From positions 1-5,296 of the forward strand of contig JAABSS010000082.1 in NCBI GenBank assembly GCA_011390235.1: 5,296 bases of DNA, in the 5' to 3' direction. Of the stretch, positions 1 through 5,296 are shown in pieces. Made by a program: the position numbers and the translations under genes. Within the stretch, counting starts at the first letter, position 1. Each line of letters starts with the position of its first letter. A model generated the notes under the pieces. It was not told the DNA's origin and searched no databases. It worked only from the letters and a program-made list of their open reading frames with translations. The DNA is from Desulfotignum sp. (GTDB lineage: Bacteria; Desulfobacterota; Desulfobacteria; Desulfobacterales; Desulfobacteraceae).

Positions 1-205
1 GCAACGCTTTTTGCACCTGATCCAGAACAGCCTTGTCCCGGTTACGGGTATGGACCACAATAATTATGCATATGCAAAAGACCACAAGAGATGCAGTGAA
101 AACCGCAAAAGAAAATGGACTAACACTGAGAACCATGCCGGAGGCCGCCAGAATCAGGAGCAGGATACAAATATTGAAATAAATGCGTTGTAATTGTATT
201 TTCAT
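1..205 (-). CDS. N-terminal part of an unidentified two-helix membrane protein (runs off the window start)
   Basis: Reading the minus strand from an ATG at 205-203 gives 68 uninterrupted codons to the window edge, so only the N-terminus is present. After a short basic start (MKIQLQR) there are two strongly hydrophobic segments, about residues 8-28 and 31-51, joined by a very short turn (SVSP). They are followed by a charged stretch (HTRNRDKAVLDQVQKAL) that could begin a helical cytoplasmic linker. Positive charge on both flanks predicts a hairpin in the inner membrane with both ends in the cytoplasm. Such an N-terminus is compatible with a membrane-anchored sensor or signalling protein, but nothing visible identifies a family. 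A good sigma70-type promoter lies just upstream (220-249), which supports this strand and start. No clear Shine-Dalgarno sequence precedes the ATG. It is divergent from the ilv operon, and a functional link is not evident. Confidence 0.68.
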   Translation of the reverse strand, partial: MKIQLQRIYFNICILLLILAASGMVLSVSPFSFAVFTASLVVFCICIIIVVHTRNRDKAVLDQVQKAL

Positions 206-219
206 AGTGTTTTACCAAA

Positions 220-249
220 ACTATAGCCAATCCCTGACCGGGTTGTCAA
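220..249 (-). promoter_or_regulatory. Sigma70-type promoter for the divergent membrane-protein gene
   Basis: On the minus strand, a perfect TTGACA (-35, at 249-244) is followed after 18 nt by TATAGT (-10, at 225-220). Five of six -10 bases match consensus. Transcription would start near 213, only about 8 nt before the ATG at 205, so the mRNA would be almost leaderless. That fits the lack of a Shine-Dalgarno sequence there. Confidence 0.68.
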
Positions 250-278
250 ATTTAATTATCCCACCCCGTATTTTTTTC

Positions 279-305
279 TTGACAGAGAAAAAATTTATAT
301 ATAAT
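279..305 (+). promoter_or_regulatory. Probable sigma70-type promoter of the ilv operon
   Basis: A perfect TTGACA (279-284) and a perfect TATAAT (300-305) lie in an AT-rich tract upstream of the leader ORF. The spacer is 15 nt, shorter than the usual 16-18, so either the promoter is suboptimal or a weaker overlapping -10 (for example TAATAA at 302-307, 17-nt spacer) is used. The start would fall near 311-313, giving a leader of about 190 nt before ilvD and about 22 nt before the leader-peptide ATG. Confidence 0.62.
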
Positions 306-310
306 AAATT
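292..310. repeat. Short AT-only inverted repeat overlapping the -10 box
   Basis: AATTTAT (292-298) and ATAAATT (304-310) are exact inverted copies separated by 5 nt, and they straddle the -10 of the ilv promoter. This could be an operator for a dimeric regulator. The sequence is only A and T in an AT-rich tract, so chance is a serious alternative. Confidence 0.25.
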
Positions 311-334
311 AATTTTAAACAAAGTGAATATAAC

Positions 335-421
335 ATGATACCCGGTTTTTTGACCATACTACTAGTCCTCATTATTATCGTGGAGGTGATTATTACCACC
401 TCCATACGAAGGGGCTCCTAG
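335..421 (+). CDS. ilv operon leader peptide (attenuator peptide), 28 aa
   Basis: ATG at 335 opens a 28-codon frame ending in TAG at 419-421. Of its residues, 8 are Ile, 4 Leu and 3 Val (15 of 28), and residues 8-20 read ILLVLIIIVEVII, with only one residue that is not branched-chain. This composition, the position between the promoter and a terminator, and the biosynthetic genes downstream match leader peptides such as those of enterobacterial ilvGMEDA and leu operons. The product itself is not expected to act; ribosome progress through the Ile/Leu/Val codons is the sensor. Scarce charged tRNA would stall the ribosome over codons 8-16 and expose the downstream arm of the hairpin at 381-404. 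The start has only a weak Shine-Dalgarno candidate (AAGTGA, 322-327). The hydrophobic run could also be read as a tiny membrane peptide, but the terminator context argues against that. Confidence 0.85.
   Translation: MIPGFLTILLVLIIIVEVIITTSIRRGS
381..404 (+). promoter_or_regulatory. Leader hairpin 1:2 (pause/anti-antiterminator stem) inside the leader ORF
   Basis: TGGAGGTG (381-388) pairs perfectly with CACCTCCA (397-404), giving an 8-bp stem with an 8-nt loop, extendable by one G-U pair. It sits at codons 16-24 of the leader peptide, just after the Ile run. In an attenuator it would act as the first hairpin: it pauses polymerase and keeps arm 2 (about 396-404) from joining the antiterminator. 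A ribosome stalled upstream would cover arm 1. Confidence 0.7.
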
Positions 422-472
422 TGGCATAACCCAAGTTTGACGTTAAAAGCCGTTATCAGCCCCAGGGGGCGG
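396..472 (+). promoter_or_regulatory. Candidate antiterminator fold of the ilv leader
   Basis: Three nested pairings can be drawn. CCACCTCC (396-403) pairs with GGGGGCGG (465-472) with one mismatch and one U-G pair. GGGGCT (411-416) pairs with AGCCCC (458-463) exactly. ATAAC (426-430) pairs with GTTAT (452-456) exactly. The downstream halves belong to the terminator stem and loop, and the first upstream half belongs to hairpin 1:2, so this fold excludes both. A ribosome at the leader stop codon (419-421) would cover 411-430 and block it. Bulges of 7 and 9 nt make its stability uncertain; found by eye only. Confidence 0.55.
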
Positions 473-486
473 ATAACGGCTTTTTT
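445..486 (+). terminator. Intrinsic terminator of the ilv attenuator
   Basis: GCCGTTATC (449-457) pairs perfectly with GATAACGGC (472-480). The stem is extended by A445-448 with T481-484 at the base and, past an A-G mismatch, by GCCC (459-462) with GGGC (467-470) towards a small loop. Six Ts follow directly (481-486), and another T run follows at 489-492. This is a strong rho-independent terminator placed between the leader-peptide stop and the ilvD Shine-Dalgarno (AAGGAG, 493-498). Because it lies upstream of the whole operon and downstream of its promoter, it must be conditional, as in attenuation. Confidence 0.88.
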
Positions 487-504
487 GCTTTTAAGGAGAG
501 ATAC

Positions 505-2172
505 ATGCGAAGCCACATTGCAACAAAAGGGGTGCAAAGAGCACCCCACAGGAGCCTGATGAAGGCGCTGGGCCTGACCGACAGAGAAATCAGCCAGCCG
601 CTGATCGGCATTGCCAACGCTGCCAATGAACTCATTCCCGGTCATATGCACCTGGATACCCTGGTTACAGCCGTGAAGACCGGCATCAGCATGGCCGGGG
701 GCACACCAATGGAATTTTCCACCATCGGGGTGTGTGACGGTATTGCCATGAACCACGCAGGCATGCATTATTCTCTGGCTTCCCGGGAACTGATTGCGGA
801 TTCCATTGAAGTAACTGCCATGGCCCACCCGTTTGATGCCATTGTCATGGTGCCCAACTGTGACAAGATTGTGCCCGGCATGCTCATGGCAGCGGCCCGG
901 CTCAATATCCCGGCCATTTTTATCAGCGGCGGCCCCATGCTGGCCGGCCGCAACCCGGTTGACCAGAAACTAAAAATTGATCTGGTGTCGGTGTTTGAAG
1001 CAGTGGGTGCTGTGCGGGCCGGCCGGATGGATGAAAAAGATCTGGCTGCTGTGGAAGACTGTGCATGCCCTACCTGCGGATCATGCGCCGGCATGTTCAC
1101 AGCCAACTCCATGAACTGCCTCACTGAAGCCATAGGCATGGCCCTGCCCGGTAACGGCACCATCCCGGCTCCCATGTCCAAACGCATCCGCCTGGCCAAA
1201 CAAACCGGCATCCAGATCATGGCGCTGCTGGAAAAAAATATCACCCCGGATAAAATCATGACCCCCAGGGCATTCATGAACGCCCTGACCGTGGACATGG
1301 CCCTGGGGTGTTCCACCAATACCGTGCTGCACCTTGCCGCCATAGCCCATGAAGCAGGTATTCCCCTGGATCTGGCCATGATCAACCAAGTCAGTGAAAA
1401 AGCCCCGCATATCTGTTCTTTGAGCCCGGGAGGGCCGGACCATATCCAGGACCTGGACCAGGCAGGCGGCATCCAGTCGGTGATGAAAGAACTGGCAGAC
1501 CACCACCTGATGGATACATCCTGTCTCACTGCCACCGGCCGCTCAGTTGCTGAAAACCTTGTCGGGATTACTGTTTTGGATCCGGCAGTTATCCGGCCTG
1601 TGGCCGACCCGTATCATACCCGGGGCGGACTGGCGGTTCTGTTCGGCAACCTGGCACCGGAAGGGTGTGTGGTCAAACAGTCGGCTGTGGTGGAAGAGAT
1701 GCTGGTGCACCAGGGTCCTGCCCGGGTGTTTGACTCGGAAGAAGACGCCACTGCCGCTATTTTGGGGGGAAAAATCAACCCCAAAGATGTGGTGGTGATC
1801 CGGTATGAAGGCCCATCCGGCGGGCCCGGCATGCGGGAGATGCTCACCCCGACGTCCGCCATTGCCGGCATGGGCCTGGGAGCTTCCTGCGCTTTGATCA
1901 CTGACGGCCGGTTTTCCGGGGGCACCAAAGGGGCCTGCATCGGCCATGTGTCTCCGGAAGCAGCTACAGGCGGTCCCATGGCAGCGGTAATGGAAAACGA
2001 CATCATCAAAATTGATATTCCGGCCAAAAGCATTACGCTGATGGTTGCACAAGACCAAATTCAAGAGCGGTTGGCCCGGTGGGTCAAACCGGAACCCAAA
2101 ATAACAAAAGGGTATATGGCCCGATATGCCCGGCAGGTATCTTCCGCCGGACAGGGAGCCATTATTCAATAA
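505..2172 (+). CDS. ilvD: Dihydroxy-acid dehydratase (IlvD)
   Basis: The 555-aa protein dehydrates 2,3-dihydroxyisovalerate and 2,3-dihydroxy-3-methylvalerate to the 2-oxo acids of valine and isoleucine synthesis in the cytoplasm. Family signatures run the full length: [12 protein letters not shown] near the start, GVCDGIAM (Asp78, Mg ligand), [12 protein letters not shown] (Cys119 cluster ligand, Asp120, and Lys121, the expected carbamylated lysine), [17 protein letters not shown] (Cys194 as second cluster ligand by alignment with E. coli Cys195), [13 protein letters not shown] (Glu445) and [10 protein letters not shown] (Ser471, expected catalytic base). No key residue is missing, and the length fits the short bacterial form. 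ATG 505 has AAGGAG at 493-498 with a 6-nt spacer, immediately after the terminator T run, so translation begins only on transcripts that escape attenuation. It is the first structural gene; ilvB follows after 17 nt. The Fe-S cluster makes the enzyme oxygen-sensitive in the known family. Confidence 0.97.
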
Positions 2173-2189: not shown

Positions 2190-3881
2190 ATGAAACTGAC
2201 AGGGGCCCAGATTCTGATTAAAATGATAAAAGCCCAGGGAGTTGACACCATTTTCGGTTATCCCGGCGGGGCCACCATTGACATCCATGATGAGATTGTC
2301 CGCCACGATGACCTGCGCCACATCCTGGTGCGCCATGAGCAGGGGGCGGTACATGCGGCTGATGCCTATTCCCGGGCACACAAAACCACAGGGGTTGCGC
2401 TGGTCACCTCAGGACCGGGGGCCACCAATACCGTCACCGGCATTGCATCCGCCCATGCAGACTCCATTCCCATGGTGGTTTTCTGCGGCCAGGTGCCCAC
2501 CGGGCTCATCGGCAATGATGCGTTCCAGGAAGTGGATATTGTGGGCATCACCCGGCCCTGCACCAAGCACAATTACCTGGTGAAAAACCCGGACAAGCTG
2601 GCAACCACCATCCAGGAGGCCTTTTACATTGCCCGTTCCGGCAGGCCGGGACCGGTGCTGGTGGACCTGCCAAAAGATATCCTCCAGGCTGAAATAGAGT
2701 TTCAGATGCCTGAAGAACCCCGCCTGCGGTCCTACAAGCCCAACTATACCCCCAATAAAAAACAGATCGCCAAGGTGGTGCAGATGGTCAAAGATGCCAG
2801 AAGGCCGGTGATATTTGCCGGCGGCGGGGTGATTTCATCCCGGGCATCGGAACAGCTTACCAGGCTGGCACAAATGGGTCGCATCCCGGTGACCACATCT
2901 CTTATGGGACTGGGGGCGTTTCCGGGCACAGATCCTTTGTGGCTGGGCATGCTGGGCATGCACGGCACCTTCCGGGCAAATATGAGCATCGGCCACTGTG
3001 ATCTGATCATTGCTGTGGGGGTAAGATTCGATGACCGGGTCACGGGGAATATTGCAAAATTTGCCCCCCATGCATCCATCATCCAGATCGATATCGATCC
3101 CACCTCCATCCACAAAAACATCCCGGTGCAGTGCCCCATTGTGGGGGACTGCAAAACCACGCTGGAACATATTCTGGCCCTCATGGAAAAACAAAATCCT
3201 GCAGAATTGACCGTGGAGCGGGACCCGTGGCTGGAACAGATTGACCAGTGGAAACAGACCACTCCCCTCAAATATGACCAGAAGGCAGATGTCATCAAAC
3301 CCCAATTTGTGGTGGAAAAGCTGTGGGAAGTCACCAAAGGACAGGCCATCATCACCACGGAAGTGGGCCAGAACCAGATGTGGGCCGCCCAGTACTACCA
3401 TTTTGACCTGCCCAACCATTTTATCACCTCCGGCGGGCTGGGGGTGATGGGATTCGGCCTGCCGGCAGCCATCGGCGCCAAGGCAGCCTGTCCGGACAAA
3501 CTGGTGGTGGATGTGGCAGGAGACGGCTCCATTCAGATGAACATCCAGGAATTGATGACTGCGGTGGAAAACTGCCTGGATGTGAAAATCGTCATCCTCA
3601 ACAACCGGTATCTGGGCATGGTGCGGCAGTGGCAGGAATTTTTCTACAACAAGGCCTATGCCTGCACCAATATCGAAAATGCCCCGGATTTTGTAAAACT
3701 GGCGGAAGCATACGGCGCTGCAGGGTTCCGGTGCACAGACCCGGCCTGTGTGGAAGACACTTTGCGCAAAGGACTTGACACTCCCGGCACGGTGATCATG
3801 GATTTTGTGGTGGAGCGGGAAGAATCGGTGTATCCCATGGTACCGGCTGGCGGCGGCCTTACGGAAATGCTTCTGGTATAA
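2190..3881 (+). CDS. ilvB: Acetohydroxyacid synthase (acetolactate synthase), large catalytic subunit
   Basis: The 563-aa ThDP- and FAD-dependent enzyme condenses pyruvate with pyruvate or 2-oxobutyrate to acetolactate or acetohydroxybutyrate, the first shared step to valine, leucine and isoleucine. The N-terminal Pyr domain (about 1-165) has FGYPGGATIDIHD and RHEQGA with Glu50, the glutamate that activates ThDP. The middle FAD-binding domain carries AVGVRFDDRVTGN (275-287). The C-terminal PP domain has the ThDP/Mg motif GDGS (444-447) through LNN (470-472), then YLGMVRQWQ with Trp481. The RQWQ motif and the neighbouring regulatory-subunit gene mark the anabolic synthase rather than the catabolic AlsS type. 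An upstream extension of the frame into ilvD is possible but unsupported by a ribosome binding site. ilvN follows after 33 nt, and the two products form the holoenzyme. Confidence 0.96.
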   Translation: MKLTGAQILIKMIKAQGVDTIFGYPGGATIDIHDEIVRHDDLRHILVRHEQGAVHAADAYSRAHKTTGVALVTSGPGATNTVTGIASAHADSIPMVVFCGQVPTGLIGNDAFQEVDIVGITRPCTKHNYLVKNPDKLATTIQEAFYIARSGRPGPVLVDLPKDILQAEIEFQMPEEPRLRSYKPNYTPNKKQIAKVVQMVKDARRPVIFAGGGVISSRASEQLTRLAQMGRIPVTTSLMGLGAFPGTDPLWLGMLGMHGTFRANMSIGHCDLIIAVGVRFDDRVTGNIAKFAPHASIIQIDIDPTSIHKNIPVQCPIVGDCKTTLEHILALMEKQNPAELTVERDPWLEQIDQWKQTTPLKYDQKADVIKPQFVVEKLWEVTKGQAIITTEVGQNQMWAAQYYHFDLPNHFITSGGLGVMGFGLPAAIGAKAACPDKLVVDVAGDGSIQMNIQELMTAVENCLDVKIVILNNRYLGMVRQWQEFFYNKAYACTNIENAPDFVKLAEAYGAAGFRCTDPACVEDTLRKGLDTPGTVIMDFVVEREESVYPMVPAGGGLTEMLLV

Positions 3882-3914: not shown

Positions 3915-4406
3915 ATGGAAACCAGCAGATATTTACTCTCAATTCTCGTGGACAATGAACCAGGGGTATTGTCCAGGATTGCCGGCCTGTTTTCCGGCAG
4001 GGGCTTTAACATCGATTCGTTGAGCGTGGCCACCACGGATGATCCGGATGTATCCCGGATCACCATGGCCACCACCTGTGATGCCCAGGTCATCGAACAG
4101 ATAAAAAAACAGCTCCACAAGCTCATCAATGTCATCACAGTGAACGACCTTACCGAAAAAAAATATGTGGAACGGCAACTGGCCCTGGTCAAGGTTCATG
4201 CCAAACCGGAAAAGCGGGCGGAAATTTTGCGCATTGTGGATATTTTCCGGTGCCGGGTCGTGGATGTGGGACATGCCCACTACACAGTGGAGATCTCAGG
4301 GGACAGCGGCAAGCACCAGGCGTTTTTGTCTCTGCTAAAACCCATGGGCATCATTGAAATTGCCAGCACAGGGGCCATTGCCCTGGCAAGAGAAATGGGG
4401 AAATAA
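3915..4406 (+). CDS. ilvN: Acetohydroxyacid synthase, small regulatory subunit
   Basis: The 163-aa protein is the regulatory partner of IlvB; it activates the large subunit and usually confers feedback inhibition by valine. An ACT domain occupies about residues 4-78 (LLSILVDNEPGVLSRIAGLF, then GRGFNIDSLSVATTDDPDVSR). The C-terminal small-subunit domain spans about 84-160 (ERQLALVKVHA, DIFRCRVVDVG, YTVEISG, ending GAIALAREMGK). Asn14, Gly17 and Asn32 correspond to Asn11, Gly14 and Asn29 of E. coli IlvH, known valine-response positions, so valine sensitivity is inferred. Length matches the bacterial IlvH/IlvN class. AAGGGA at 3903-3908 sits 6 nt before the ATG. The symbol ilvH is used for the same family in some genomes. 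Only one base separates its stop from the next start. Confidence 0.96.
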   Translation: METSRYLLSILVDNEPGVLSRIAGLFSGRGFNIDSLSVATTDDPDVSRITMATTCDAQVIEQIKKQLHKLINVITVNDLTEKKYVERQLALVKVHAKPEKRAEILRIVDIFRCRVVDVGHAHYTVEISGDSGKHQAFLSLLKPMGIIEIASTGAIALAREMGK

Positions 4407-4407
4407 A

Positions 4408-5296
4408 ATGGATTCAGTAAAACTATACGACACCACCCTCAGGGACGGGATGCAGGGGGAAAACATCTTTTTTTCTCCGGAAGACAAAATAAAAATCGCC
4501 AGAAGACTGGATGATGCCGGCATTCATTATATTGAAGGCGGATGGCCCGGCTCCAATCCCGGGGCAGCCCATTTTTTTGAGCTGGCACAAAAGATCTCCT
4601 TTAACCATGCAAAGGTGGCGGCCTTCGGTGCCACCCGGCGGCCGGGCACAACCTGTGATAGCGATGCCAACCTTGCGGCACTCATTGACTCAGAAGCCCC
4701 AATCATCACCATTTTCGGCAAATCATGGGGCCTGCATGTCACACAGATCATGGATAACACCCTGGCAGAAAACCTGGACATGATCCGGCAGAGTGTGGCC
4801 CACCTGCTCTCCCATGACCGGGAAGTGATGTATGATGCAGAACATTTTTTCGACGGGTACAAGGCCAACCCGCAGTATGCCCTGGATACGCTGGCAGCGG
4901 CCCTGGAAGGCGGCACCCGCACCCTGGTACTGTGTGACACCAACGGCGGGGCCATGCCCTGTGAAATAGATGAGATCGTCAGGTCTGTGATGGACTACTT
5001 CAAGGACCACCCCGGCATCTGTTTCGGGATTCATACCCACAACGACTGCGCCATGGCCGTGGCCAATGCGGTCAATGCCGTGCATGCCGGTGCCGGCATG
5101 GTCCAGGGCACCATCAACGGGTATGGGGAACGCTGCGGCAATGCGGATCTCACCGCCATCATCCCGATCCTGGCCCTGAAGATGAAAAAAAAGTGCATGT
5201 CTGAAGAAAACCTCAAAAAACTGCTGAACCTGTCCAGATTTGTCTCGGAAACCGCCAATATGCCGCCCGTAAGTTCCCGGCCCTTTGTGGGAAAAA
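4408..5296 (+). CDS. cimA: (R)-citramalate synthase, long (CimA) type, 3'-truncated by the window
   Basis: The first 296 codons of a DRE-TIM metallolyase run open to the window end; family members are about 520-540 aa, so the rest of the linker and the C-terminal LeuA-type allosteric domain lie outside. CimA condenses pyruvate and acetyl-CoA to (R)-citramalate, starting threonine-independent isoleucine synthesis. Seen are LYDTTLRDGMQGE (6-18; Arg12, Asp13 in the metal/catalytic site), YIEGGWPGSNPGAA, FGATRRPG, the stretch DAEHFFDGYKANPQYA, VLCDTNGGAMP, HTHND (209-213, metal-binding histidines) and the family pattern GYGERCGNA (238-246). The GGWPGSNP and DAEHFFDGYKANP stretches favour CimA over 2-isopropylmalate synthase or homocitrate synthase, though substrate choice in this family is inferred. 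ATG 4408 follows the ilvN stop by one base, and GGGGA at 4397-4401 inside ilvN serves as ribosome binding site, suggesting translational coupling. Confidence 0.93.
   Translation, partial: MDSVKLYDTTLRDGMQGENIFFSPEDKIKIARRLDDAGIHYIEGGWPGSNPGAAHFFELAQKISFNHAKVAAFGATRRPGTTCDSDANLAALIDSEAPIITIFGKSWGLHVTQIMDNTLAENLDMIRQSVAHLLSHDREVMYDAEHFFDGYKANPQYALDTLAAALEGGTRTLVLCDTNGGAMPCEIDEIVRSVMDYFKDHPGICFGIHTHNDCAMAVANAVNAVHAGAGMVQGTINGYGERCGNADLTAIIPILALKMKKKCMSEENLKKLLNLSRFVSETANMPPVSSRPFVGK

Follow-up and report, generated by a model that had tools for sequence, protein, structure and literature searches.

The 5,296-nucleotide stretch of Desulfotignum sp. DNA analyzed here (the window) carries what we take, with a probability of about 0.9, to be a ribosome-mediated transcription attenuator of an ilvD-ilvB-ilvN-cimA operon. 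Leader peptides of this type control enterobacterial ilv and leu operons by ribosome-mediated attenuation, and the initial annotation had proposed that this operon is controlled in the same way. Sequence comparison backs that proposal through the recurrence of the leader upstream of ilvD and through a terminator and an antiterminator that exclude each other. The general features of an attenuator are found in the window, namely an ORF rich in codons for the end products, a predicted intrinsic terminator 5' of the first structural gene, a competing antiterminator at the leader stop codon and control codons placed such that region 2 would be left free. The genes following the leader, all on the forward strand, were identified with NCBIfam models as dihydroxy-acid dehydratase (ilvD, 505–2172; TIGR00110 and NF002068 above cut-off), the acetolactate synthase large subunit (ilvB, 2190–3881; TIGR00118 above cut-off), the acetolactate synthase small subunit (ilvN, 3915–4406; TIGR00119 above cut-off) and citramalate synthase (cimA, 4408–5296), the last of which is cut by the window end and has TIGR00977 as its best match (405.4 bits, below the cut-off of 450). 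The host had been judged from the sequence to lie apparently outside the Gammaproteobacteria, which agrees with the closest ilvD among the matches listed, that of a Desulfobacula MAG (76% identity); the next nine among those listed belong to records titled Desulfobacterota groups or Deltaproteobacteria.

The leader ORF (335–421, forward strand) runs from an ATG to a TAG at 419–421 and encodes the 28-residue peptide MIPGFLTILLVLIIIVEVIITTSIRRGS. The composition first reported for it, 8 Ile, 4 Leu and 3 Val with the run ILLVLIIIVEVII at residues 8–20, proved exact on re-reading, and its placement between promoter and terminator also holds, with a TTGACA box on its 5' side and an intrinsic terminator on its 3' side. 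In first-order Markov resampling of 206–504, any ORF of at least 15 amino acids with at least 50% Ile/Leu/Val arose in 60 of 2000 sequences, and one that also held at least 15 such residues arose in 1 of 2000. The TTGACA box (279–284, forward strand) is the candidate −35 element of the operon promoter and ends 50 bases from the leader ATG; an AT-rich −10-like stretch is visible by eye at approximately 300–307 and is absent from the promoter scan output. Among the 113 nonredundant leaders described below, TTGAC occurs within 95 nt 5' of the leader ATG in 105, mostly 50–69 nt away (8% in shuffled sequences). The same scan reported TTGACC-17-TATTAT within the leader ORF (350–378; 10 of 12 matches), a site from which transcription would bypass the leader start codon and which is probably there by chance. 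On the minus strand, a divergent hydrophobic ORF (2–205) is cut by the window start and is accompanied by a TTGACA/TATAGT promoter-like site at 249–220. The Shine-Dalgarno pairing at leader starts is weak (median −3.3 vs. −1.5 kcal/mol in shuffled sequences), with no strong Shine-Dalgarno sequence seen by eye before the leader start of the window.

The ORF is followed, 24 bases after its stop codon, by an intrinsic terminator hairpin and T run (446–486, forward strand), recognized by folding, recurrence and covariation; it was not listed by the above scan, probably due to an internal mismatch. Its competitor is indicated by duplex prediction and alignment. The antiterminator 5' arm GGGGCTCCTAGTGGC (region 2, 411–425, forward strand) includes the leader stop codon and pairs with GCCGTTATCAGCCCC (region 3, 449–463, forward strand), which is common to antiterminator and terminator. 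In the window this duplex is GGGGCT cc TAGTGGC with GCCGTTA tc AGCCCC, at −20.6 for the antiterminator vs. −25.3 for the terminator. Within the leader, region 1 (359–374, forward strand) consists of codons pairing with 409–414 and 418–424 according to the minimum-energy fold and a synonymous-codon test, and an inner hairpin inside the ORF (380–405, forward strand; 380–388 with 397–405) is indicated by folding, covariation and the same test. The E. coli ilvB, leu and trp attenuators follow a four-region logic of leader codons, 1:2 pairing, 2:3 antiterminator and 3:4 terminator. The present element appears to follow this logic, with the 1:2 pairing as a putative part, but unlike those attenuators it is a single RNA design that stands before several pathway operons across an order and in which regions 2 and 3 are closely conserved.

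From this arrangement we infer how translation and stalling would affect transcription. RNA polymerase would start upstream of 335 and transcribe the leader ORF, with a ribosome translating behind it. If charged Ile, Leu and Val tRNAs were ample, the ribosome would reach the stop codon at 419–421 and cover region 2, whereupon region 3 would fold into the terminator and transcription would stop before ilvD. If one of these tRNAs were scarce, the ribosome would stall in the Ile/Leu/Val run 5' of region 2 and break the leader hairpins, and region 2, thus freed, would pair with region 3 to form the antiterminator, allowing the operon to be transcribed. In a state free of translation, region 1 would pair with region 2 and the terminator would win again.

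The initial annotation had named an alignment of related ilvD upstream regions as a check on the leader, and a short ORF rich in Ile, Leu and Val whose nucleotides vary is indeed present, together with a terminator, 5' of ilvD at 115 of the 146 loci scanned. A leader was counted if it held at least 36% Ile/Leu/Val and ended anywhere from 80 bases ahead of the terminator hairpin to 15 bases into it. Besides the window and 15 named loci, the 146 include 130 ilvD matches, out of 154 in 194 genomes of the order to which the Desulfobacula MAG belongs; 107 of these 130 have the leader. The 24 matches left out had short upstream sequence or came near or after the end of the list. Three further named loci (L052, L055, and L059), inspected and found to be without such a leader, are outside the 146, and the leader scan did not extend to the remaining loci of the initial ilvD match list. 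Removal of two duplicates from the 115 leaves 113 nonredundant leaders.

The 31 misses are of several kinds. The end of cimA lies directly upstream in 11 (L005, L162, L171, L182, L186, L188, L193, L195, L197, L198, and L201), so that ilvD is internal to its operon there and not its first gene; three of these genomes carry the element before cimA instead (L268, L257, and L256). Six others (L205–L210) are ilvD homologues of 57–59% identity that form a second ilvD lineage in the order, without the leader, and three of their genomes have the element before ilvB (L244, L249, and L250). Both leader and terminator can be recognized by eye at L098 and L107, which failed the scan. At L118, an inverted-repeat insert of approximately 100 bases, seen by eye, separates the leader from the terminator and would part region 2 from region 3. 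L110 retains the terminator and the conserved arm with no leader ORF found by the scan, and is possibly a case of decayed control. Neither leader nor terminator was found in the stretch scanned at L008, L009, L014, L018, L020, L025, L026, L092, L203, and L204 (54 bases for L204), and the genomes of L008 and L009 carry the element before cimA (L267 and L270).

The competing structures recur with the leader. In all 113 leaders, sequence at the stop codon or a little 5' of it can pair with the terminator 5' arm. The median energy of the best antiterminator duplex, a figure that has no shuffled control, is −21.5 kcal/mol (−13.9 to −30.7) and equals the terminator median. For covariation, 63 of the 113 leaders were aligned, chosen for similarity below 0.82; the shuffle figures that follow are not probabilities, as kinship alone can lift sequences above shuffles without any structure. 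Of the cells belonging to the 15 terminator pairs, 96.2% are paired, and changes on both sides occur in seven pairs and 49 cells (0 of 500 shuffles; at most 7 cells in slid versions). For the 13 antiterminator pairs, the paired share is 92.0% (20–59% in slid versions), which exceeds all 500 shuffles, and their covariation score of 0.160 was reached by none of the 500 and compares with at most 0.065 when slid. Changes on both sides affect six antiterminator pairs and 15 cells; six pairs were reached in 5 of 500 shuffles, and a version slid by +3 has six pairs and 16 cells, so that these raw counts alone are no proof of the pairing. Compensatory changes are many in the terminator and the inner hairpin and fewer in the antiterminator. 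RNAalifold predicted the terminator alone from the long alignment, which is expected because the structures exclude each other.

Two RNA words are conserved, CCGTTATCAG, a near-invariant terminator arm, and TGATAATGGC, its partner. Such words, together with a conserved hairpin, resemble an aptamer, and a metabolite-binding riboswitch or protein-binding leader that controls the terminator, with the ORF as a by-product, would account for them. However, the terminator, the antiterminator and the stop codon already do so, and the remainder codes for protein, with Ile/Leu/Val content in one frame as the property that the leaders share. Nor was a riboswitch recognized by Rfam: across 4227 families, the window and 40 related loci gave no match at the gathering score on the element, and the lone match above threshold is a tRNA apart from it (L238, 1913–1983). 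The best matches below threshold were, in the window, sau-19 (28.1 of 80 bits) and, in L002, Rev39_5p_UTR (25.4 of 88 bits). We regard a riboswitch or protein-binding leader as highly improbable, and attenuation through translation of the ORF as the reading to be preferred.

Codon content and placement point in the same direction. In the 113 leaders, Ile, Leu and Val make up 53.5% of residues in frame, and the other two frames give 23.4% and 6.5%, the in-frame value being raised because the leaders were selected with a 36% floor. Placement can be read directly from the sequences, which were selected for Ile/Leu/Val content and not for its position, relative to a region 2 start that was set approximately from the duplex. 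Between −66 and −18 nt, 54–91% of positions hold Ile/Leu/Val codons, and closer to region 2 their share drops to 31% at −15, 28% at −12 and at most 10% over the last stretch, −9 to 0. It rises again, to 23% at +3 and 56% at +6, in leaders that continue across region 2 and end in, for example, LIMA. A ribosome footprint reaches approximately 12–15 nt past the A site and the run ends at about −18, roughly the point at which a ribosome that stalls would just fail to cover region 2. PMC4833913 has the ribosome covering up to 12 nt 3' of a stop codon. Codons for Ile, Leu and Val are all present in the control stretch, and all three branched-chain aminoacyl-tRNAs would presumably be sensed.

A peptide of this kind would also be hydrophobic enough to form one membrane helix, which raises the question of whether its product is a small membrane protein with a function of its own, the terminator and the codon pattern being incidental. 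The hydrophobic residues in the 113 leaders are, however, largely Ile, Leu and Val, with low shares of Phe (1.2%), Met (1.1%), and Ala (3.6%). Phe and Met together make up 4.2% of NTN codons (3 of 16 if all were equal), and this scarcity argues against a mere membrane segment. The C-terminus also speaks against a membrane protein, as the region 2 word is translated in varying frames across loci, giving for example G before TGA, W before TAA, or IMA and VMA before TAA or TAG, with the stop codon inside or just after the word in most. The varying frames and the position of the stop suggest that the word is conserved as RNA and not as peptide. Codon choice, moreover, tracks RNA folding, and all 40 model matches inspected precede genes of the branched-chain pathway (both treated below). 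A membrane protein is thus very unlikely to explain the ORF, and its role as the leader of an attenuator is retained.

The constraint on codon choice is seen in the folds of the 113 leaders, which have an energy of −28.1 kcal/mol as they stand vs. −20.1 kcal/mol when synonymously recoded (mean z −2.25); synonymous codon choice favors leader hairpins. In the inner hairpin, across the 63-sequence alignment, both sides have changed in 77 cells vs. 31 in shuffled alignments (0 of 500; at most 52 when slid), and 76.3% of cells are paired vs. 68.7% in shuffles; the counts of changed pairs and of pair types are not clearly above the shuffles (76 and 84 of 500). For region 1:2, pairing in 72.4% of cells vs. 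71.7% in shuffles (93 of 500) gives no covariation support. Against synonymous recodings it has a mean z of −1.16, with 83% of the 113 leaders below zero, the sequences not being independent of each other; two neighboring stretches gave −0.78 and −0.70 in the same test. The inner hairpin of the window contains GGAGGTGAT at 382–390, a strong Shine-Dalgarno-like word inside the leader ORF that occurs also in L001, L002, L003, L082, and L083 and could slow a ribosome. With this word in the ORF, ribosome arrest might be caused by it or by the nascent peptide in place of codon starvation. Nascent-chain arrest, however, usually requires conserved residues, and the feature common to the leaders is an amino acid class and its position. 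Other leaders looked at by eye keep the inner hairpin with a different sequence. Arrest by peptide or internal word is accordingly given hardly any weight beside stalling at Ile, Leu and Val codons.

The range of the element was examined with a covariance model, R1, built from 63 leaders. At E up to 0.001, R1 matched 174 of the 194 order genomes and left 20 without a match, with 57 of the 63 leaders coming from that same genome set and so matching by construction. It matched 44 of 395 genomes in a phylum draw, some of which are of the same order. These genome searches used strict filters by which weak matches can be lost. We inspected 40 matched loci, 20 following the first ten phylum-draw loci and 20 order matches away from the ilvD starts already read, and all 40 precede a branched-chain gene: ilvD in 4 (already in the ilvD set), ilvB in 17, cimA in 14, and a leuA-family gene in 5. 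The name cimA was given at L234, L240, and L256 from the second ORF listed, by its start, and L233 was named by its resemblance to L228. Ile/Leu/Val make up 33–58% of the best leader candidates in these loci, with L238 lowest at 5 of 15. Within the leuA family, L228 and L232 pass TIGR00973; L258 and L259, of approximately 560 residues, resemble 2-isopropylmalate synthase below its cut-offs, have a Leu-rich copy of the leader and are possibly a distinct leuA type.

Leader composition appears to differ between these genes. Two genomes near the window have both kinds of leader, with 8 Ile, 2 Leu and 5 Val or 7 Ile, 2 Leu and 5 Val before ilvD, and 2 Ile, 6 Leu and 3 Val or 3 Ile, 6 Leu and 3 Val before the leuA-family gene, a difference that fits sensing of the pathway's own product as far as two related genomes can indicate. 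When pooled, the share of Leu among Ile, Leu and Val is 0.30 for 16 ilvB leaders, 0.34 for the 113 ilvD leaders, 0.40 for 17 cimA leaders and 0.49 for four leuA-family leaders. In 49 named genomes searched with R1 at E up to 0.01, 15 had matches, ten of them Desulfobacterota with leaders before ilvD (seven) or cimA (L267, L268, and L270). Matches in genomes of other phyla by record title (L269, L271, L272, and L273) look like plain terminators with no leader or branched-chain gene and were set aside as false positives, as was a match of the same kind in a MAG titled Proteobacteria (L274), whose genome is also among those of the phylum draw. R1 gave no matches in the named Desulfovibrio and Desulfacinum genomes (L018, L026, L055, and L059).

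The weak Rev39_5p_UTR match led to a comparison with the E. coli K-12 ilvXGMEDA attenuator (IlvL, L280), which likewise combines a 32-residue Ile/Leu/Val-rich leader with a terminator-like hairpin. Homology to the ilvL leader RNA was rejected, with one local stretch of likeness remaining. R1 does not clearly recognize the ilvL leader (11.4 bits, E of 0.087 in 2.3 kb), blastn of window positions 335–490 against E. coli genomes gave no match, and the ilvL terminator and region 2/3 sequences differ by eye from those of the element. The local stretch pairs window positions 374–400 with L280 859–887 (ATTA.CGTGG.GGTGATTATTA..CCACC). For the inner hairpin in the clade of the window, a comparison chosen after the match was noticed gave a local score of 37 against ilvL (codon shuffles: mean 21, maximum 28, 0 of 300 as high), and the median score for all 113 members was 18. 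We take this likeness, without proof, as convergence under the same demands on codons and hairpin. The ilvB-II motif of Corynebacterium and the ilvB-OMG motif likewise place a branched-chain-rich uORF before ilvB, with attenuation proposed, and the ilvB-II motif has a terminator stem (PMC10272879). No match to Rfam families of this type was found in the 40 loci (E up to 0.5) or in window positions 1–900 (E up to 5), the presence of the motifs in Rfam being assumed.

The element very likely works like classical ribosome-mediated attenuation, here in Desulfobacterota, and priority is not claimed. A literature search, judged by titles and the beginnings of abstracts, returned no report of branched-chain attenuation in Desulfobacterota; the surveys of Vitreschak et al. 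(2004), cited in PMC10272879, and Lopatovskaya et al. (2010), cited in PMC4833913 and PMC10272879, may list such cases, and the passages of PMC545781 consulted contain no word beginning with ilv. As CCGTTATCAG and TGATAATGGC are common to the ilvD, ilvB and cimA leaders and have a close form in those of the leuA family, the released leader RNA of one operon might act in trans on other branched-chain operons. We consider this improbable; if true, the attenuated transcript would also be a small regulatory RNA coupling these operons.

The lineage-wide spread of the element is the part of this work that adds something. One RNA design before ilvD, ilvB, cimA, and leuA-family genes would give the lineage a testable regulon, and R1 offers a means to mark its leader genes in approximately nine of ten genomes of the order. 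The more than 100 natural variants could also be used to study how leader codons, antiterminator and terminator are jointly tuned.
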